A stretch of 64,000 nucleotides of DNA from an uncultured Alphaproteobacteria bacterium (GTDB lineage: Bacteria > Pseudomonadota > Alphaproteobacteria > GCA-2731375), in assembly GCA_951812805.1 (NCBI GenBank), contig CATOSZ010000016.1, positions 62,001 to 126,000 of the forward strand, read 5' to 3'. Position 1 is the stretch's first letter. Every line of letters starts with the position of its first letter. Position numbers and translations under genes: made by a program. Under the pieces are notes generated by a model. It was not told where the DNA came from. It ran no database searches and was given only the letters and a program-made list of their open reading frames with translations. Of the stretch, positions 3,534 through 64,000 are shown one piece after another.

Positions 3534-5228
<1,695 letters not shown>

Positions 5229-5326
5229 GCTGTTGGTTTCCTCCCGCCGCCGGTTCGCGCTCGGCGATCCAGCGGACGAATTGTGCGCGCCCCGAGGTTC
5301 GGGGCGGCGGGCGATGCACCAATCGA

Positions 5327-5343
5327 TTGTCGTCACGCGACAA
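5327..5343. promoter_or_regulatory. candidate operator, proximal copy (TTGTCG-N5-CGACAA)
   Basis: Perfect 6-base inverted repeat TTGTCG TCACG CGACAA, centred about 107 bases upstream of the betaine methyltransferase start. A near-identical site lies 145 bases further upstream. The 300-base stretch 5229-5528 that holds both has no supported gene, so these sites are its only recognisable content. Confidence 0.45.
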
Positions 5344-5471
5344 AGGAGGCCAGGGTGACCTCGCAAGGGCGGTCGGCACGGTCCCGAACCCGTCGCGCGC
5401 TGGCATCGCCCGGAAGGCGTCCCGGGGGATGCGTTCGGAGGCATGACGATCCGAAGCGCCTGTCTCCAAAC

Positions 5472-5488
5472 TTGTCGTTTAACGACAT
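5472..5488. promoter_or_regulatory. candidate operator, distal copy (TTGTCG-N5-CGACAT)
   Basis: TTGTCG TTTAA CGACAT shares the TTGTCG-N5-CGACA core of the copy at 5327-5343; the inner part TGTCGTT-T-AACGACA is a perfect 7-base palindrome around one base. It lies between the betaine methyltransferase gene and the 3' end of the zinc-ribbon gene. The pair looks like the binding site of a dimeric regulator, possibly controlling betaine synthesis, but no regulator gene adjoins it. Confidence 0.45.
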
Positions 5489-5528
5489 TACTATCCTGAT
5501 TGCGTCATTTCAACCGTGCCGCGAGACG

Positions 5529-5801
5529 TCAACCGCCGTCGCGATGATGCTGGGCGACGACGCCGAGGCTCGGATAGCGGGGTCGGATGTCGATGGAACG
5601 CCGGCCGCAGGCGCGGCAACGCAATCGCCGGCCGGCCACACCGACCGGCGTCGCCGCGCCCAGACGGGCGATCAGCAGGGCGAGCGACGGCTCGCGGTAA
5701 CGCCCGCAGCCCTCGCACCAGGCGGAAATCGCAATGCCGCGCCGGGCCAGCTCGCCCAGCGTCACGCCGATCCCGTCCCCCTGTCGGTCCCATTTGCTCA
5801 T
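5529..5801 (-). CDS. small zinc-ribbon protein, possibly SOS-regulated
   Basis: A 90-residue protein beginning MSKWDRQGDGIGVTLGELA. Two cysteine pairs, CEGCGRYRE (about 29-37) and CRACGRRSID (about 62-71), would form one four-cysteine zinc ribbon. An N-terminal helix with ARRGIAISAWCEGCG leads into the first pair. Function is unknown; the ribbon suggests nucleic-acid or protein binding. The start codon lies 5 bases from a GAAC-N7-GAAC sequence with TTGACA elements behind it, which is the arrangement of a LexA-repressed promoter in alphaproteobacteria. No conventional ribosome binding site is visible, so the message may have almost no leader. Confidence 0.55.
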   Translation of the reverse strand: MSKWDRQGDGIGVTLGELARRGIAISAWCEGCGRYREPSLALLIARLGAATPVGVAGRRLRCRACGRRSIDIRPRYPSLGVVAQHHRDGG

Positions 5802-5805
5802 TCAG

Positions 5806-5857
5806 GAACAAAACAGGAACATACTGGGGGATGTCAAGACGGTGGGATGTCAAGACG
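5806..5857 (-). promoter_or_regulatory. LexA-type box with duplicated -35 element before the zinc-ribbon gene
   Basis: On the plus strand 5806-5820 reads GAAC-AAAACAG-GAAC, which matches the GAAC-N7-GAAC spacing known for alphaproteobacterial LexA boxes. Read on the minus strand, two TTGACA hexamers lie upstream (5837-5832 and 5853-5848), inside a 14-base direct repeat at 5828-5841 and 5844-5857. The box would overlap the -10 region of a promoter using the nearer TTGACA. Chance occurrence of the 8 fixed bases is about one per window this size, so the promoter context carries the argument. Confidence 0.45.
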
Positions 5858-5863
5858 ACCCGC

Positions 5864-6505
5864 TCAGAACTCCCGCACCAGCATTTCCAGGGCGCCGGCC
5901 ACGCTGTCGACGGGATGGACGTCGAAGCCGGTGCGGCGTTCCGCCAGGGCCAGCGGGCGCTCCTCCGGGCCGGCGCCGGTCAGCACGTGCAGGCCGCCGC
6001 GGATGCCGGCGTTGCGCCCCGCGCCCATGTCGGTTGCCCGGTCGCCGACGATCCAGGACCGGGTGAGGTCGACATGCAGCGCCTCGGCCGCCTTCAGCAG
6101 CATGCCCGGGTTCGGCTTGCGGGCCGGATGGTCGGCATGCACCAGCGGCCCGTCGCCGTGGTAGGTGAAGGGACAGGCCAGCACCGCGTCGATATGCGCG
6201 CCGGCCGCCGCCAGCACCTCGAGGATATGGCCCTGCACCTCGGCGAAATCCTCCCAGCGGAAGAGGCCCTGGCCGATGCCCGACTGGTTGGTGACGACGA
6301 CGACATGAACGCCGCGCCGGTTGGCCTCGGCGATCACCTGTTCGACGCCGGCGATCATCTCGATGTCGTGCACTTTGTGCAGGTGGCCGGTGTCCTCGAT
6401 GATCACGCCGTCGCGGTCGAGGAACAACGCCGGCGCCGGCCGGCGGGGCGAGCGCCACTCGGACCAGACCAGATCGTCGTCGACGTGGTGCGGCAGCTGG
6501 GCCAT
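5864..6505 (-). CDS. HAD-superfamily phosphatase, GmhB/HisB-N type
   Basis: A 213-residue HAD hydrolase of subclass IIIA. The four motifs are FLDRDGVI (nucleophile and acid aspartates, about 28-35), VVVTNQSG, RKPNPGM and VGDRATDMG. GmhB enzymes remove the 7-phosphate of heptose 1,7-bisphosphate and carry a zinc loop with two cysteine/histidine pairs. Here the loop keeps CPFTYH but the usual CxC pair is replaced by HADHPARKP, so zinc binding is doubtful and another sugar or polyol phosphate is possible. The start is ATG at 6505, two bases from the end of the dehydrogenase gene upstream. It is the last gene of a five-gene leftward run. Confidence 0.75.
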   Translation of the reverse strand: MAQLPHHVDDDLVWSEWRSPRRPAPALFLDRDGVIIEDTGHLHKVHDIEMIAGVEQVIAEANRRGVHVVVVTNQSGIGQGLFRWEDFAEVQGHILEVLAAAGAHIDAVLACPFTYHGDGPLVHADHPARKPNPGMLLKAAEALHVDLTRSWIVGDRATDMGAGRNAGIRGGLHVLTGAGPEERPLALAERRTGFDVHPVDSVAGALEMLVREF

Positions 6506-6507
6506 GG

Positions 6508-7485
6508 CTAACCGCCCAGCACCTCTTCGTTGACGCACATCGTCGCCGCGAGCACGCCGTCCAGGGCGTCGAGGGTATTCTGCACCGCCGTCGTGCTCAT
6601 CCGCAGCATGCATTCGGGCGTCGCCGCCGCGGTGTGCGGTGTCAGCACCACGTTCGGCAGGCCGAAATAGGGATGGTCGTCGGCCGGCGGCTCGGTCGCG
6701 GTGACGTCGAGGCCGGCGCCCTTCAGCTGGCCGCTGCGCAACGCCTCGGCCAGCGCCGTCTCGTCCACCAGCGTGCCGCGCGCGCAGTTGATCAGGATCG
6801 CGCCCGGCTTCATCGCGGCGAAGGCAGCCGGCCCCATCACCGGGCTGCGGTCCTGGCGGCCCGGCATGTGCAGCGTGACGATGTCGGCCTCGCCCAGCGC
6901 CTCGTGCAGGTCGCCGACCCAGCGATAGCCCTGGCCCTCGACCGCGCGGCGGGGCACGAAGGGATCGGCGACGACGACATCCATGTCGAAGGCCTGGCAG
7001 CGCCGGGCCATGCGGGTGCCGATGCGCCCGAAGCCGACGACCAGGATGGTCTTGCCGGCGATGTCGACGGCGCCGGCCGTGTGGCGTACGTCCCAGTTGC
7101 CGCCGCGCACCTCCCGGTCCTGATGGCCGAGGTTCTTCGCCACCGCCATCATCAGGGCGAAGGCATGCTCGACCACCGAGGGCGAGTTGGCCGCCCCGGT
7201 AACCGCGAGCGGGATGCCCCGCGCCGTCAGCGCCTCGACATCGCAATTGTCATAGCCGACTCCGTGCCGGGTCACCACCTCGAGCTTTTCCGCCGCCGCG
7301 ACGACGCCGGCGTCGATCCGCGCCGTGCGCACGACCATGGCGTGGACGTGCGGGGCCCGTTCCAGCACCTCCTCCGGCGTGGGGGCGACCAGCATCTCGT
7401 ATTCGATGTCGTCCCGCGCCTCCAGCAGGGCCACGCCTTCCGGCATGATCCGGCCCAGCAGCAGGACCCGTTTCAGATTTTCCAC
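6508..7485 (-). CDS. D-isomer-specific 2-hydroxyacid dehydrogenase (phosphoglycerate dehydrogenase-like)
   Basis: A 325-residue NAD-dependent dehydrogenase of typical length for the family without a regulatory domain. The Rossmann motif is VVGFGRIGTRMA (about 150-161). The catalytic arginine lies in NCARGTLVDE, the glutamate in VTATEPPADD and the histidine in VLTPHTAAAT. It oxidises a D-2-hydroxyacid, or reduces the 2-oxoacid. Its neighbours (an Ldh2-type dehydrogenase upstream, a HAD phosphatase downstream) suggest sugar-acid or hydroxyacid metabolism rather than serine synthesis. The initiating ATG is at 7485, 27 bases after the preceding gene. Confidence 0.85.
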   Translation of the reverse strand: MENLKRVLLLGRIMPEGVALLEARDDIEYEMLVAPTPEEVLERAPHVHAMVVRTARIDAGVVAAAEKLEVVTRHGVGYDNCDVEALTARGIPLAVTGAANSPSVVEHAFALMMAVAKNLGHQDREVRGGNWDVRHTAGAVDIAGKTILVVGFGRIGTRMARRCQAFDMDVVVADPFVPRRAVEGQGYRWVGDLHEALGEADIVTLHMPGRQDRSPVMGPAAFAAMKPGAILINCARGTLVDETALAEALRSGQLKGAGLDVTATEPPADDHPYFGLPNVVLTPHTAAATPECMLRMSTTAVQNTLDALDGVLAATMCVNEEVLGG

Positions 7486-57022: not shown

Positions 57023-58192
57023 CTAGGCCGCATCCTCGCCCCGGCCGGCCTCGGCCCGGACTTCCGCCTCGTGCTCGCCCAGCCTCGGCGGTGCCTGGCG
57101 AACGGCGAAGGGTGCCGCCGACATGTCGATCGGCGAACCGACGAGCCGTACCGGACCGCCGGCGCTCGGCGCCAATTCGACGATCATCCGGTTGACCGCC
57201 GTCTGCGGATCGGCGAGCGCCTCCTCCAGACTGCGCACCGGCGCACAGAGGATGTCGACGCCCTCGAGCCGTTCGACGAAATGCGCCGTACTGTCGGCGG
57301 CGAAGCGCTCGCGGAAGATCCCTTGCAGCTCGCCTCGCCGCTCCTTCTGACGGTCGAGATCGGCGTACTCGGACCGGGCCGAGAGGTCCTCGATCTCCAG
57401 CGCCCGGCAGATGTCCTGCAAGGGATTGAGCTTGAAGGCACCGACCATGACGACGGCACCGTCCGTCGTCTCGAACACGCCTGAGAGCGGCATCGCCGCC
57501 CAGTTCAGTTCCGCCCCCCGCATCATTCTGACGGCGGCCTCCTGCATCTGCATCGCCAGCATGGAATTGAACAGAGAGACCGCGATCCGTTGGCCCTCGC
57601 CCGTCTTGTCGCGCTGCAGCAGGGCCAGCAGGATGCCCTGCACCATGTGCATGCCCGCCGCATAGTCGGCGATGGCGATCGGATAGGTCGACAGCGGCAG
57701 CGAGGGGTCGGCGCGACGCAGGATCGCCCCGCTCATCGCCTGGGCCAGCACGTCCTGGCCGCCCTTGTGGCGGTAGGGGCCCTCGAGCCCGAAACCTGTG
57801 CCGACGGCATAGATGATCGCGGGGTTCAGACGATGGAGATCCTCCCAGCCGAAACCCATCCGTTCCATCACGCCCGGGCGGAAGTTGTTGACGACGACGT
57901 CCGCCCCCTCGATCAGGCGCAGCACCAGGGCGCGATCCTCCTCCGCCTTCAGGTCCAGCGCCACGCTTCGCTTGTTGCGGTTGAGGCTGGAAAAGACCGG
58001 ATTGTTGAAGCCATCCGGGTCCTCGCCCAGGCTCCAGCGCGAGAGGTCGCCGGTGCCCTGTTTCTCGATCTTGATCACGTCGGCGCCGTAGTCACCCAGC
58101 ATCTGGGTACAACAGGGGCCCATCATGACCTGGGAAAAATCGACGACGCGGATGCCGGCGAGCGGCAGGGTCTCGTTCGGCGCTTGGGTCAT
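57023..58192 (-). CDS. family III CoA-transferase (CaiB/BaiF)
   Basis: A 389-residue CoA-transferase with IRVVDFSQVMMGPCCTQMLGDYG at the start (cited by VVDFSQVMMGPCCTQM), DVIKIEKQGTGDLSRW, the catalytic-aspartate region AIADYAAGMHMVQG (about 165-178) and typical C-terminal segments. It probably activates the operon's substrate acid to a CoA thioester. It shares TGATG with the FAD oxidoreductase stop. Confidence 0.9.
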   Translation of the reverse strand: MTQAPNETLPLAGIRVVDFSQVMMGPCCTQMLGDYGADVIKIEKQGTGDLSRWSLGEDPDGFNNPVFSSLNRNKRSVALDLKAEEDRALVLRLIEGADVVVNNFRPGVMERMGFGWEDLHRLNPAIIYAVGTGFGLEGPYRHKGGQDVLAQAMSGAILRRADPSLPLSTYPIAIADYAAGMHMVQGILLALLQRDKTGEGQRIAVSLFNSMLAMQMQEAAVRMMRGAELNWAAMPLSGVFETTDGAVVMVGAFKLNPLQDICRALEIEDLSARSEYADLDRQKERRGELQGIFRERFAADSTAHFVERLEGVDILCAPVRSLEEALADPQTAVNRMIVELAPSAGGPVRLVGSPIDMSAAPFAVRQAPPRLGEHEAEVRAEAGRGEDAA

Positions 58193-59553
58193 CAGGCGGC
58201 CTCCGTGATCGTGGCGTTCTCCGCCGGCACGTCGCCCGGATCGGCACCTTGCGCGCGCATGCGTTTCTGGATATCGGCGGGCGAGACGTCGCGCACCGTG
58301 ATATCGGCTTCCAGCGCCAGCGCCGCGGCGATGCCCGTGGCCTCGCCCATCGCCATGCAGGGCGGAATTTCACGGCTCAGCTTCTGCGCCTGCGAGGTGG
58401 CCGAATAGTGGCGGCCGGCGACCAGCATCTGGTCGACATGTTTGGGCAGCAGGGCCCGGTAGGGCGTGTAATAGTCGCGACCCCGGCAGACGGTGTCTGC
58501 GAAATGGACCCGGTCCATGACATCGGATTTGGTGACGACATACTCGCCTTCCAGGAGGCGCGCCTGGCGTACGCCGGTTTGCGGCGCGAAGTCGAGGATA
58601 TGGGCGTTCTCGAAGCCCGGCATCTTCGCCCGGGCGAATTCGAGCAGCTCCTGGATGCGGCGGCGGCCCTCGAACTCGGCCGCGGTCAGGTCCGCGACCT
58701 TGGTGCCGTCGAAGCCGGTCATATGGGGACAGTTGCACCAGACCACGCCCGGCAACGGCGTCTTCAGCCACCAGTAGTTCCAGCTGCCGCCGATGATTCG
58801 CTTGGCCTGGCGGTCGATCGCGTCGAACTCGTCGGGCGCCTCGAACTGGAAACGTTCCGCCGCTGCCGTGTCCACGCCGCCCATGCGGCTGACCGTGGTG
58901 ACAATGAAGGCGCCGTCGGCATGTGCTGCGCCCGCATCCGCGGCGACATCGAGATCACCCGAGGCATCGATGACGACGTCGCCCAGGATCGCCTGCGGGC
59001 CTTCCTTGCTCTGCACCACGACGCCGACGGCCCGGCCGTTGCGCATCAGGGTCGAGCGGAACCAACTGTGCAGGCGCAGGTTGACGCCGGCCCCGCCGAC
59101 CATGTCCATGGCCGCCTGCTTGTAGCCGTCGGGGTCGAAGGCGGCGGCAAAGATGATCGGGTGCGGCGTTACCGGAATGTGGAAATCGAAGGTGCCCCAG
59201 CGCGACCACTTGCGCCACATCTCCCAGCTCTCGCGGACGTCGGGGTGGCGGTCGGCGTCGGGGGGAAAGACGCAGAGGCCACGCGCCGCCATGCGATCGA
59301 TGATCTCCATGCAGAGGCCGCGAACGGAAATCTCAGTGCCGTTGTGCATATCGTCCAGCAGCAACACCATGCCGCCCGAGGCCAGCCCCCCCAAATAGGG
59401 ATAGCGTTCGATCAGCGTCGTCGAGGCGCCGTTGCGCGCGGCCGAAACGGCGGCCGCGATACCGGCCGGACCACCGCCGACGACGACCACGTCGGACTTC
59501 GCGACCACCGGCGCCTCGGCGCCCGGTAGGCTCACGGAATTGGGCGTCGACAT
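58192..59553 (-). CDS. FAD-dependent oxidoreductase (FAD_oxidored/fumarate-reductase-like)
   Basis: A 453-residue flavoprotein. The FAD fold is DVVVVGGGPAGIAAAVSAA near residue 21, followed by ERYPYLGGLASGGMVLLLDD, which is characteristic of the PF12831-type FAD-dependent oxidoreductases. The C-terminal FAD contact is LVAGRHYSATSQAQKLSREI followed by CMAMGEATGIAAALA. The substrate is unknown. Ferredoxin, CoA-transferase and hydratase genes in the operon make an oxidation or reduction of an organic acid or its CoA ester likely. Confidence 0.85.
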   Translation of the reverse strand: MSTPNSVSLPGAEAPVVAKSDVVVVGGGPAGIAAAVSAARNGASTTLIERYPYLGGLASGGMVLLLDDMHNGTEISVRGLCMEIIDRMAARGLCVFPPDADRHPDVRESWEMWRKWSRWGTFDFHIPVTPHPIIFAAAFDPDGYKQAAMDMVGGAGVNLRLHSWFRSTLMRNGRAVGVVVQSKEGPQAILGDVVIDASGDLDVAADAGAAHADGAFIVTTVSRMGGVDTAAAERFQFEAPDEFDAIDRQAKRIIGGSWNYWWLKTPLPGVVWCNCPHMTGFDGTKVADLTAAEFEGRRRIQELLEFARAKMPGFENAHILDFAPQTGVRQARLLEGEYVVTKSDVMDRVHFADTVCRGRDYYTPYRALLPKHVDQMLVAGRHYSATSQAQKLSREIPPCMAMGEATGIAAALALEADITVRDVSPADIQKRMRAQGADPGDVPAENATITEAA

Positions 59554-59575
59554 GGCGCTTCTCCTTCGCGTGCCA

Positions 59576-60403
59576 TCAATGAACGTCCTGTGTCTTCCAC
59601 GTCAGCACGCGCTTTTCGACCAGGCTGGTAAGGCTGAAGAAAGCGACGGCAAGGCCGGCGCCCAGCACCACCGTGGCGTAGAGCAACGGCGAGCGGAAGT
59701 TGTAGGTGGCCTCGATGATCAACGAGCCGAGACCGTAGTTGGAGCCGATCCATTCACCGACGATGGCGCCGATGACGCAGGTCGTCGACGCGATCTTCAG
59801 GGCTGCGAAGAGGAAGGGCAGCGAGCTTTGCAGGCGGACCTTGAAGAGGACTTCCCTGGGGCTTGCCGACAGCACGCGCATCAGCTCCAGCATCTCGGGG
59901 CTCACCGCCTTCAGGCCGCGGACCATGTTCACGAGCGTCGGAAAGAAACAGATCAGCGCCGCGATGACGATCTTCGGCGCATAGCCGTTGCCGAGGATCA
60001 GCACCAGGATAGGCGCCACGGCGATGATCGGGATCGTGTTGATAAAGACGGCGATCGGATAGAAGGCGCGTTCCGCCAGGCGGCTGTGGACGAACCAGAT
60101 GGCGAGCACGACGGCGACGGTATTGCCAACCAGGAAGCCGGCGGCGGCCTCCAGCAGGGTCGGCCAGAAGTTGATCCACAGGACATCGCCCTGTTCGAGG
60201 AAGACCTGGGCGACCTGGATCGGGCTGGGCGCGATGTAGGTCGGAATGGAGAAGCCGACGACGATCGCCTGCCACAACAGAATAATGCCGACCGCCACGG
60301 CGATCGCCGGGCCCTTGTCGCGCCAGAAGTGGCGCCGCCGCGGTTGCGCCTGAATGGTCGCCTGGGCGGTGGCGGGTCGGCCGTCGGCTTCGATGTCGGC
60401 CAT
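59576..60403 (-). CDS. ABC transporter permease (SsuC/TauC/ThiX type)
   Basis: A 275-residue inner-membrane protein with about six helices. The conserved cytoplasmic loop for ATPase contact is LMRVLSASPREVLFKVRLQSSLPFLFAAL (cited by SASPREVLFKVRLQSSLPFL). It is typical of permeases for sulfonates, nitrate, taurine or pyrimidine-like solutes. Start ATG at 60403 shares TGATG with the ATPase gene stop. Confidence 0.9.
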   Translation of the reverse strand: MADIEADGRPATAQATIQAQPRRRHFWRDKGPAIAVAVGIILLWQAIVVGFSIPTYIAPSPIQVAQVFLEQGDVLWINFWPTLLEAAAGFLVGNTVAVVLAIWFVHSRLAERAFYPIAVFINTIPIIAVAPILVLILGNGYAPKIVIAALICFFPTLVNMVRGLKAVSPEMLELMRVLSASPREVLFKVRLQSSLPFLFAALKIASTTCVIGAIVGEWIGSNYGLGSLIIEATYNFRSPLLYATVVLGAGLAVAFFSLTSLVEKRVLTWKTQDVH

Positions 60404-61173
60404 CAGGCAGCCTCCAGCAGCCCGCGCAAGTGCGCGGTGATGCGGATGAACTCGACCGTCTCGCGCATCGCTAGGCGCCGCTCGGCCGTCAGATCCACCT
60501 TCGCGTACTCGCGCACCCGGCCGGGATGGGCGGACAACACCAGGACCCGCTGGCCGAGGAAAGCCGCCTCCGGCACGGAATGGGTCACGAACATGATGGT
60601 CGTCCCGGTCTCGGCCCAGATCCTGAGCAGTTCCTCGTTCAACCGATCGCGGTTGATCTCGTCGAGCGCGCCGAAGGGCTCGTCCATCAGCAATACGCGG
60701 GGCCGGGTGACCAGCGCGCGGGCGATCGAGACGCGCTGGCGCATGCCGCCCGAAAGCTCGTGCGGCAGCGCCCGCTCGCGCCCCGCGAGGCCGACCAACG
60801 CCAGCAGATCCTCGGGCGATGCGTGCTGGTCGACGACGCCCGCCTTGCCACCGACCTCCAGCGGCAGGCGGACGTTGTCGATGGCGCTGCGCCAGGGCAA
60901 CAGGGAGGCATCTTGAAAGACGAAGGCGAAATCACGCGCGAGACGGGCCGCTTCCGGTGTGCGGCCGAAGACGGAAATCGCGCCCTCGGAGATCTCGACC
61001 AGGTCGGCGATGGCGCGCAGCAACGTCGACTTGCCGCAGCCCGACGGCCCCAGCATGGTGATGAAACCACCCTCGGGCACGTCGAAGCCGACGCCTTCCA
61101 GCGCGGTCACCGCTCCGGCCTCGCTGGCGAAGCGGACCGCGAGGTTCTTTACGGATATCGCCGCCTCGGCCAT
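60403..61173 (-). CDS. ABC transporter ATPase (SsuB/TauB type)
   Basis: A 256-residue ATPase. Walker A is LGPSGCGKSTLLRAIA (about 42-57), the Q-loop is FAFVFQDASLLPW, the signature is HELSGGMRQRVSIARAL and Walker B is RVLLMDEPFGALDEI; the switch histidine is in VTHSVPEAAFL. It energises uptake through the adjacent permease. It lies 21 bases after the binding-protein gene. Confidence 0.95.
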   Translation of the reverse strand: MAEAAISVKNLAVRFASEAGAVTALEGVGFDVPEGGFITMLGPSGCGKSTLLRAIADLVEISEGAISVFGRTPEAARLARDFAFVFQDASLLPWRSAIDNVRLPLEVGGKAGVVDQHASPEDLLALVGLAGRERALPHELSGGMRQRVSIARALVTRPRVLLMDEPFGALDEINRDRLNEELLRIWAETGTTIMFVTHSVPEAAFLGQRVLVLSAHPGRVREYAKVDLTAERRLAMRETVEFIRITAHLRGLLEAA

Positions 61174-61194
61174 CGCTATCGTTCCCGGCTCTCT

Positions 61195-62241
61195 CTAGCC
61201 GATCTGCTTGCGCAAGCTCTCCGTCGCCGCCAATACGTCCTCGGTCATCACGTCGCCGACGGACGGCGTGGCGCCCTTGAACTGCTTCAGCGACGCGTAG
61301 GTGTCGATCTGAGCCTGCCAGTTGGCCGCATTCATCGCCGCCCAGCCGTCTTTCGCCGTGGTCGCGTTGAAGGCAAAACCCAGCACCGGCTTCACCGCCT
61401 CGAGCTCGCTCTCACGCTTCAGGTTGCGATATTCGGAGACCAGATGGTCGACCGCCCTCTCCGGGTTCTTGCGCGCGAAGCCCCAGCCGCGGGCCGAACC
61501 GGTGAGGAAGCGCTGCAGCACGTCCTTGTGTTTCGCCAGCATGTCGTCGGTCGTGTAGTAGACGTTGGCATAGAGCTGGATACCGCCGTCCCACAGCATC
61601 AGGTCGACCCGGTCCTTGCCGAGGATCTTCAACGCGTTGGTATTAGTCATCCAACCGGTGACCGCAGCCGCCTGACCGGTCATCAACTGGTTCATATCGC
61701 TGCCCATCTTGACGATATTCACATCGCCCTCGGCAATGCCGTTCTTGGCCAACAGCGCCTTCAGCAAGATCACCGCCGTCGGCTGGGTGGCGATGGTCTT
61801 GCCGACCATGTCCTTGGGTGCGCGGATCGGGTCGTTGGCGAGCGAGAAGTAAGTGAAGGGGTGCTTCTGATAGCCCGCCGCGAAGGCCTTGACCGGAATC
61901 CCGGCGGCGCGCGCCAGCATCAACGAGGGGCTGGACGAGAGCTGGCCGGCGCTCGCCCGTCCGGCGGCGACGGAAGCGACACCGTCGACCCCCGGCCCAC
62001 CCGGCGTGACCTCGAGCTCGATGCCTTCGTCCTTGTAGAAGCCCTCACGCTTGGCGACGACCTCGCCGAGGATGCCGTTGCTCGCCAGCCAGCCGAGCTG
62101 CATGGCGACCTTGGCTTTGCCGGCGGCCAGCGCCTCGACGCCGATGAATGTGGTCGCCGCCGCCGTGGCGGCGAAGGCGGTTCCGCGCTTCAGCAGGTCG
62201 CGGCGGTCGAGAGATGCGGTCGAGAAATCCAGGTCCGTCAT
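61195..62241 (-). CDS. TAT-exported ABC substrate-binding protein (NMT1/THI5-like)
   Basis: A 348-residue periplasmic protein. The twin-arginine signal is SLDRRDLLKRGTAFAATAAA (about 10-29). The mature part opens KVAMQLGWLASNGILGEVVA and has GFYKDEGIELEVTPGGPGVD, the pattern of NMT1-type binding proteins for sulfonates, nitrate or pyrimidine precursors. The choice of ligand is open. The ATG at 62241 is chosen; the longer frame has no signal-like sequence. It is the first gene of the nine-gene operon and divergent from the selenoprotein gene. Confidence 0.85.
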   Translation of the reverse strand: MTDLDFSTASLDRRDLLKRGTAFAATAAATTFIGVEALAAGKAKVAMQLGWLASNGILGEVVAKREGFYKDEGIELEVTPGGPGVDGVASVAAGRASAGQLSSSPSLMLARAAGIPVKAFAAGYQKHPFTYFSLANDPIRAPKDMVGKTIATQPTAVILLKALLAKNGIAEGDVNIVKMGSDMNQLMTGQAAAVTGWMTNTNALKILGKDRVDLMLWDGGIQLYANVYYTTDDMLAKHKDVLQRFLTGSARGWGFARKNPERAVDHLVSEYRNLKRESELEAVKPVLGFAFNATTAKDGWAAMNAANWQAQIDTYASLKQFKGATPSVGDVMTEDVLAATESLRKQIG

Positions 62242-62337
62242 GGGTATCGCCTCCCCAGCGATGCGGTCTTCGATCAAGTTGCGCGGGGATTGTGATGAGC
62301 CCAAGCGTTCGAAGGAAGAGGTATATTTTTTCTCCCC

Positions 62338-62356
62338 CGTTGCTTTTTTTGCAACG
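62338..62356. promoter_or_regulatory. candidate operator between the ABC operon and the selenoprotein gene
   Basis: CGTTGC-TTTTTTT-GCAACG is a perfect 6-base inverted repeat around seven T residues. It sits in the 199-base divergent region, in its most AT-rich stretch. A dimeric regulator bound here could control both directions; the operon's own LysR protein is a candidate. Confidence 0.45.
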
Positions 62357-62440
62357 CGCCACGGTGGGCTTCCTCCAGACATCGTCTTGACCATGGCTCA
62401 GGACTAGGTCATGGCTTGGTCGTCGAACGAGGAGGAAATC

Positions 62441-64000
62441 ATGGCGAATTCGACGCATTCCGAAGTGTTTGCCACGCTCTGGCCCGGCGGGCCCTATGCG
62501 GTCGAGATCGTACCGCCGGCCGCCCGGCCGGACAGTCTGGCCGGCAAGACGATCGGCTTCCTCTGGGACGACATGTTCCGCGGCGAGGAGATCTTTCCCG
62601 TCATCGAGGCGGAAATCCGCGCCCGCCACCCCAATACCCGTTTCGTCGGTTGGGAGGCGTTCGGCTCGATCTTCGGCGGGGACGAGCATCGGGTGCTGGC
62701 GGAACTGCCGGCGCGGCTGGCCGCCGAGGGGGTCGATGCCGTCGTCTGCGGGGTCGGCTGTTGAGGCGCGTGCACGCCCGCCGTGATGCGGGCGAGCGCG
62801 GTGGTCGAAAAAGCGGGCGTCCCGACGGCCTCGCTGGTCTGTGACGGCTTCCTCGGCCAGGGCGCGGTGACGGCCGGCGGGCTCGGCATTCCGGCCCTGC
62901 CGTTGGCCCGGCTGGTCGGCCATGTCGACGGCCAGGGGGACGCGGAGCTGGCGGCGAACGTCCGCGACGTGACCGCCGAGGCGGTGATCCATCACCTGAC
63001 CCGCGCGCCCCGGGCCGAGACGGACAGCCACGATTTCGGCACCGACGAGATCGTCGCACACGGCACTCTCGACGAGGTCAATGCGATCTTCGAGGCGCGG
63101 GGCTGGAGCGACGGCCTGCCGATCACCCCGCCGACGCCGGAGAAGGTCGCGGCCTTCCTGGCCGAAGCCGCCGATCCCGCGGACCGGGTCATCGGCACCC
63201 TGCAACCGGCCGGGCGGGCGGCAACAGTGCGCAACGTCGCGGTGAACGGCGTCATGGCCGGCTGCCGCCCCGACTATATGCCGGTGTTGATTGCCATCGC
63301 CGAGGTGCTGGCCGATCCCGCCTACGGGGTCGAGCACAGCGGCGATACCACGGGCGGCGACGCGCAGATCGTGCTCTCGGGCCCGGTCATCGAACGCCTC
63401 GGCTTCAACGTCGAAAACGGGGCGATGCGGGAAGGCACGCGCGCCAACACCAGCGTCGGGCGTTTTCTGCGCCTCTTCCTGCGCAACGTCGCGGGCTGCC
63501 TGCCGGGCGCCGGCGACAAGAGCACCTTCGGCAATCCCACCCGGGTCGTGCTGGCCGAACACGAGGCGGAGCTGACGGCGCTTGGCTGGCTGCTGTTCGC
63601 CGAGGACCGGGGTTTTGCCGCCGGCACCGACCTCGTCACCATCGCCCGCTTCACCAGCGGCGGGGTCGTCGGCTCGATCTACGGCGCGGACCCCGACGTC
63701 ATCGCCGCCTATCTCGCCGACGGCCTGGTGCGCCACACGAGCTGGGAGGCGGTCTTCATCGTCGGCTTCGCGCCCGGCACCTACCGTCCGCTGTTGGCGA
63801 TCAGCCCGATGGTCGCCAAGACGCTGGCCCGGGCCGGCTGGTCGAAGGACGACCTGCGCCGCGCCCTCTTCCGCCATGCCCGCCTGCCGGCGGCGAAACT
63901 GGAAACCTATTTCGGCCCCTGGACCAACCTGGTGCCCGGCCGGCCGAAGCTGGCGGACCTGGTGGCGGCCGGCACCGCGGATCCCGTCTTCGCCGAGAGC
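62441..64000 (+). CDS. UGSC-family selenoprotein with in-frame UGA (Sec108), 3' partial
   Basis: ATG 62441 follows GAGGAGGAAATC. The frame runs 107 codons (GFLWDDMFRGEEIFPVIEAE, then VDAVVCGVGC) to a TGA at 62762-62764. It then continues in the same frame, with no other stop, to the window end: GACTPAVMRASAVVEKAGVP and on. Codons 108-111 thus read U-G-A-C, close to the U-G-S-C motif for which the UGSC (seleno)protein family is named; homologues carry Sec or another residue there. A SECIS-like hairpin follows. The second half (GWSDGLPITPPTPEKVAAFL, NVAVNGVMAGCRPDYMPV) is a domain seen with UGSC proteins, function unknown. Conventional annotation would end this at codon 107. Confidence 0.8.
62769..62800 (+). 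promoter_or_regulatory. SECIS-like RNA hairpin for selenocysteine insertion
   Basis: CGTGC (62769-62773) pairs with GCGCG (62796-62800), and CGCCCGC (62775-62781) pairs with GCGGGCG (62788-62794), with one A-A mismatch between them. The 6-base loop is CGUGAU, with a GU as in bacterial SECIS loops. The upper stem begins 11 bases and the loop 18 bases after the UGA, within the range for bacterial elements. It lies inside the coding region, as in bacteria it must. Confidence 0.65.

Follow-up and report, generated by a model that had tools for sequence, protein, structure and literature searches.

An in-frame UGA in a UGSC-family gene of an uncultured alphaproteobacterium suggests a two-part selenoenzyme linked to thioredoxin

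A single in-frame TGA lies within a long coding frame at the end of the DNA stretch analysed here (64,000 nucleotides, contig C16, positions 62001-126000; "the window"), and it raises two questions, namely how this codon is read and what the resulting protein would do. The explanation that we consider best overall, with a probability of about 0.6, is that the gene specifies a selenocysteine (Sec)-containing two-part enzyme by which a substrate would be reductively cleaved or reduced and which would be recycled by thioredoxin. Three other readings were weighed: a genuine Sec protein with an ordinary thiol redox role in peroxide, disulfide or metal handling, where no substrate bond is cleaved; a Cys-type gene in which the TGA has arisen by nonsense mutation (i.e. 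a pseudogene) or by an error of sequencing; and decoding of the UGA as some other amino acid, via a reassigned code or a suppressor tRNA.

The gene and its family

With the UGA read through and the frame followed beyond the window on the contig, a single gene for a 571-residue UGSC-family protein is obtained, the last 51 codons of which lie past the window and end with a TGA stop at the equivalent of 64154-64156 (Table 1). A preliminary description of this DNA had reported a well-initiated frame with one TGA at codon 108, more than 410 further codons without a stop, and the residues VVCGVGC-U-GACTPAV around the TGA. All of this is borne out, as the ATG at 62441 is preceded by AGGAGG, the TGA occupies 62762-62764, the codons up to the window edge number 412 and the residues are seen exactly so. 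Open frame length is nevertheless weak evidence here, since the gene has a GC content of 71% and the antisense strand, too, carries an open frame of 651 codons here; what raises the frame above chance is the homology on both sides of the TGA, the fact that all 80 homologues have TGA or a Cys codon in this place, and a conserved hairpin.

The Pfam model PF24696 (UGSC) matches residues 14-182, spanning the TGA, with 100 bits against a gathering score of 25, and also matches all 67 aligned full-length homologues. The NCBIfam equivalog model NF041046 gives 43.1 bits, below its 125-bit cut-off, so that annotation relying on this model would miss the present subgroup. With the UGSC family as described (PF24696; PMC2398784) the protein shares the Pfam match above cut-off and the Sec or Cys in U-x-x-C, but it carries C-U-G-A-C in place of the known D-U-G-S-C. 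By profile match, the window gene is an added member of this already described selenoprotein family. The earlier assignment to UGSC is upheld by PF24696 but needs two amendments: the local motif is UGAC, of a C-U-G-[SA]-C subgroup below the NF041046 cut-off, and roughly two thirds of the protein form a further domain without annotation (here the partner domain) that had been left unseparated.

Table 1. Features of the UGSC locus, in window coordinates
Feature	Position	Strand	Basis
Ribosome-binding site AGGAGG, 5 nt ahead of ATG	62430..62435	+	Sequence
UGSC-family selenoprotein gene, first 520 of 571 codons	62441..64000	+	Read-through translation and full-length homologues
UGSC domain, residues 14-182, predicted Rossmann-like alpha/beta fold	62480..62986	+	PF24696, 100 bits; AlphaFold2; fold match of residues 34-192
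TGA codon 108, almost certainly decoded as selenocysteine	62762..62764	+	Homologue codons and all eight own paralogues
Cys111, presumed resolving cysteine of U-x-x-C	62771..62773	+	Invariant in 67 aligned full-length homologues
Putative bacterial SECIS hairpin, stem GCCCGC/GCGGGC, 6-nt loop CGUGAU	62776..62793	+	Folding, conservation, bSECIS rules
Partner domain, residues 204-571, W[ST]DGLPxxPPT family (window end cuts domain)	63050..64000	+	No Pfam or NCBIfam model; separate gene at five other own loci

Reading of codon 108

The codons equivalent to codon 108 were compared in 80 full-length homologues, collected by a GTDB genome search with an alignment of three fused proteins as query, and are TGA in 70, TGC in 6 and TGT in 4, with nothing else. 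The TGA-bearing genes come from Alpha-, Beta- and Gammaproteobacteria, Actinomycetota and Tectomicrobia. Sec/Cys108, Gly109 and Cys111 are invariant among the 67 aligned full-length homologues. The genome itself has eight UGSC genes, every one with a TGA within the motif, and a search of 96 related genomes returned more than 100 matches to PF24696 in 23 of them, each with exactly one internal stop that is always TGA, the exception being one fragment that starts past the site. On the tree, Sec and Cys have been exchanged at least twice (three times by parsimony) and the window protein is placed in a mixed Sec/Cys clade.

The machinery for selenocysteine insertion is present in the same genome, with all components above cut-off: adjoining selA (572 bits) and selB (447 bits) genes at C17:62458-65723, selD (286 bits) at C1:682991 and, 1.4 kb from the latter, a tRNA-Sec gene (selC; 70 bits, anticodon TCA) at C1:681477-681567. 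The two checks that the preliminary description had proposed, on the homologous residue at position 108 and on selA, selB, selC and selD, have thus returned only Sec or Cys and all four genes, respectively. Across 36 homologue genomes, selB is found above cut-off in 26 of 26 with the TGA form as against 4 of 10 with the Cys form (p 1e-4). Two further matches in the genome exceed the tRNA-Sec gathering score (C1:514624-514713, 52.8 bits; C5:285089-285174, 47.3 bits) and are probably long-arm tRNAs of other types.

Just downstream of the UGA, the transcript can fold into a hairpin with a 6-bp stem and a 6-nt loop, which begins 17 nt past the UGA and has G at its second position. These values all fall within the published bSECIS rules (loop of 3-9 nt, stem of 4-16 bp, G in the first two loop positions, spacing of 16-37 nt; PMC13188914); an Rfam scan of the window gave no match at gathering thresholds. 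The hairpin core, CCCGCCGTGNTGCGGG, occurs in 71 of 72 TGA genes but in none of the 10 Cys genes (Fisher 5e-12, an indicative figure for related sequences, uncorrected for kinship). The five codons that span it read CCC GCC GTG NTG CGG in 71 of the 72 TGA genes, a run that codon usage alone predicts in about 1 of 45 genes, whereas mixed codons specify an almost identical peptide in the ten Cys homologues. Relative to synonymous shuffles the folding energy has a mean z of -1.95 in TGA genes and -0.34 in Cys genes, i.e. folding exceeds the shuffles in the former but not in the latter. Such Sec/Cys pairs with and without the hairpin constitute a clean natural test of SECIS function.

From these comparisons it is practically certain that selenocysteine is inserted at the UGA of codon 108 by the organism's own SelA, SelB, SelD and tRNA-Sec, directed by the downstream SECIS hairpin. 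A pseudogene, for which one could cite the existence of Cys homologues and the frequency of chance open frames at 71% GC, is hardly conceivable when the same TGA is kept in most homologues across several groups and in all the own paralogues, the hairpin is conserved at synonymous sites and selB tracks the TGA forms, and this reading is refuted as far as sequence allows. Reassignment of UGA to another residue, whose sole support is that the frame continues through the TGA, is rejected as similarly improbable, since the window gene itself stops with TGA, homologues show Cys and not Trp or Gly at the codon, and a SECIS and the Sec machinery are present.

An obligate partner domain

The region that follows the UGSC domain (Table 1) belongs to a family of about 350-365 residues, stand-alone copies of which give no Pfam or NCBIfam match. 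Ten copies are encoded in the genome, all within the eight UGSC loci, and every UGSC locus has one, fused to the UGSC domain at three loci and as an adjoining gene at the other five. Both families are found in the same 23 of the 96 relatives, the other 73 being without either, and both were present in nine of nine plasmid loci examined, haloarchaeal ones included. As judged by this linkage and co-occurrence, the UGSC and partner domains work as an obligate pair. A fusion of UGSC to a domain called "Unknown_1" was reported in 2008 (PMC2398784) and may be the same architecture. Labelled hypothetical in public records, the partner domain would be the missing half of the UGSC system.

A near-invariant Cys of the partner domain corresponds to residue 275 of the full protein and is replaced by Leu in one of the own paralogues. 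No credible match was obtained among PDB sequences, whether the query was the full protein, the partner profile or the full profile, and structural comparison of the partner fold by VIA-align, with a best Z of 5.7, found no convincing solved relative. The top Foldseek hits, class I fumarate hydratases, have a TM of ~0.25 and an r.m.s.d. of ~17 Å, and we claim no fold from them.

Thioredoxin link and gene neighbourhood

At two of the own loci, one of them on C5, the partner carries an N-terminal thioredoxin-like CPTC domain; for the one copy tested, the PDB matches are all thioredoxins, although weak (E ~0.03), and Pfam thioredoxin models also match weakly. Among 82 fused homologue loci a thioredoxin reductase-like gene lies near 21 and a second partner-domain gene near 31. 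An Arthrobacter plasmid has the gene row trxB-trxA-partner-UGSC, and in Variovorax trxB lies upstream of UGSC/partner. No thioredoxin or thioredoxin reductase gene was seen adjoining the gene at the window's own locus, so that the thioredoxin link is drawn from paralogues and homologues.

The other recurrent neighbours are transporters (TRAP, TTT, NMT1/ABC), CoA-transferases, LLM-like flavoproteins, phosphosulfolactate synthase and PEP-mutase relatives; they vary between loci, and the search of gene neighbourhoods for a substrate did not converge on one compound. Phosphosulfolactate synthase genes near UGSC/partner occur in unrelated organisms, on the Arthrobacter plasmid (653-4797 of the examined stretch) and on a Natrinema zhouii plasmid, and possibly hint at a sulfonate-type substrate. 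In the window, a divergent cluster on the minus strand (57023-62394) encodes an NMT1/SsuA-type binding protein, an ABC ATPase, a permease, a FAD_oxidored protein and a CoA-transferase III, and may supply or process the substrate. Its ABC transporter genes resemble the NCBIfam models of the Sao selenoprotein transport system (SaoA/SaoP/SaoX/SaoT) but score far below the cut-offs (SaoA 195/360, SaoP 76/295, SaoX 27/300), on which ground an identity with the Sao transporter was rejected; they are open, with no in-frame TGA.

Fold of the Sec domain and its relation to GrdB and PrdB

The AlphaFold2 model of the whole protein has a pLDDT of 93. The best fold matches of residues 34-192 are Rossmann-like (PurE and others, Z ~10), with no thioredoxin among the matches listed, and the model places Sec108 between a strand (residues 100-106) and a helix (residues 111-124). 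The Sec domain is thus predicted to be Rossmann-like, which differs from the thioredoxin-like fold guessed for UGSC in 2008 (PMC2398784).

A profile comparison by hhalign of UGSC with PrdB/GrdB-type proteins gave a probability of 80.5% (P 1.3e-5) for a stretch of 47 columns surrounding the Sec, with Sec aligned on Sec and Cys on Cys; the register was unchanged when both were masked (P 8e-4), and shuffled, reversed and unrelated control profiles reached at most 2.1%. The GRDB model PF07355 matched none of 67 members at E up to 1. Together the profiles suggest that the Sec region of UGSC appears distantly homologous to GrdB/PrdB, which we regard as a lead and not as family membership. The systems are alike in the U-x-x-C-T-x-A-V pattern, in a second subunit and, as proposed for UGSC, in re-reduction driven by thiols, but the UGSC partner could not be recognised as a pyruvoyl protein of the GrdE/PrdA type, and the genomes that carry UGSC are far removed from the clostridial fermenters of amino acids. 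The same genome also contains at least three PrdB/GRDB-like genes with an in-frame TGA and a PV-U-PxCT motif (from C8:328150, C3:1748973 and C3:1462852), which are thus additional selenoprotein genes, liable to be truncated by a routine gene caller.

Proposed mechanism and alternatives

Taken together, these data suggest that the window protein is a thioredoxin-recycled reductase, a distant relative of the glycine and proline reductases. The partner domain would hold and position a small organic substrate, a role that is a guess given that its fold has no convincing solved relative. The selenolate of Sec108 would attack this substrate, a bond of which would be reductively cleaved or reduced, and Sec108 and Cys111 would then close as a selenenylsulfide that the thioredoxin/thioredoxin reductase couple would re-reduce. 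The chemistry of this model is that described for glycine and D-proline reductase (PMC10298544). Sec coding, domain pairing and gene linkage to thioredoxin and its reductase are the parts of the scheme established at the level of genes. A counterpoint comes from Vibrio europaeus plasmid pVEu (2500-4185 of the examined stretch), where a UGSC-partner fusion has Met and Ser replacing Sec and Cys (LADMGTSVM); it must function without the redox pair, if it is functional at all, and some members would then work without Sec/Cys chemistry.

The alternative that survives best is the Sec protein with an ordinary thiol redox role, which we consider possible but doubtful. Sec families with UxxC are mostly thiol oxidoreductases (PMC2398784) and neighbouring trxA and trxB genes would fit this role equally well, but the predicted fold of the Sec domain is Rossmann-like and not thioredoxin-like, its Sec region aligns with PrdB/GrdB types, and the obligate partner of ~350 residues, the recurrent transporters and CoA-transferases and the eight paralogues all suggest substrate-specific metabolism. 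For the two-part reductase, the eight paralogous pairs in one genome further suggest different substrates. A broader proposal, which we advance tentatively and judge to have somewhat less than an even chance, is that, beside the glycine and D-proline reductases, UGSC and its partner form a further branch of selenium-dependent reductive enzymes, the third and so far unrecognised, spread over Alphaproteobacteria, other phyla and, in the Cys form, haloarchaea, with an expansion to eight paralogous pairs in this genome, each of which would act on an imported substrate of its own with electrons from thioredoxin.

In aquatic metagenomes the UGSC proteins rank among the most abundant selenoproteins (PMC2398784), and a 2026 review still counts UGSC among the selenoproteins of largely uncharacterised function (PMC13188914). 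New here are the predicted fold, the constant UGSC-partner pairing, the thioredoxin link and the possible tie to GrdB/PrdB. Through this locus and its relatives UGSC function becomes testable, as that of a two-part, thioredoxin-recycled enzyme that may be distantly related to GrdB/PrdB.

Annotation of UGSC genes

It had been anticipated that a normal gene caller would report a 107-residue stub and lose the rest. The stub stands, but a frame of 457 residues remains from a GTG at 62783, and most likely a caller would give the stub and a truncated second gene. Public plasmid records contain comparable cases. On Acidovorax sp. T1 plasmid p2-T1 a UGSC fusion is represented by a 96-residue CDS that stops at its UGA, and the remainder is without a listed CDS in the PLSDB gene table, which is itself incomplete. 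The record of Paracoccus ferrooxidans pFER4 breaks the UGSC gene at the UGA into two proteins, both labelled hypothetical. The common nucleotide motif of the hairpin could locate UGSC genes that annotation has cut at the UGA. A Cys-type UGSC-partner gene on Neorhizobium galegae pNgVX (4941-6609 of the examined stretch) is likewise entered as two CDS, here overlapping and in different frames, and looks frameshifted. Some metagenome bins with UGSC fusions bear the species names Klebsiella pneumoniae (L116) or Bordetella parapertussis (L119 and L139); as the tree places L116 and L119 among environmental Betaproteobacteria, these two appear to be misnamed.
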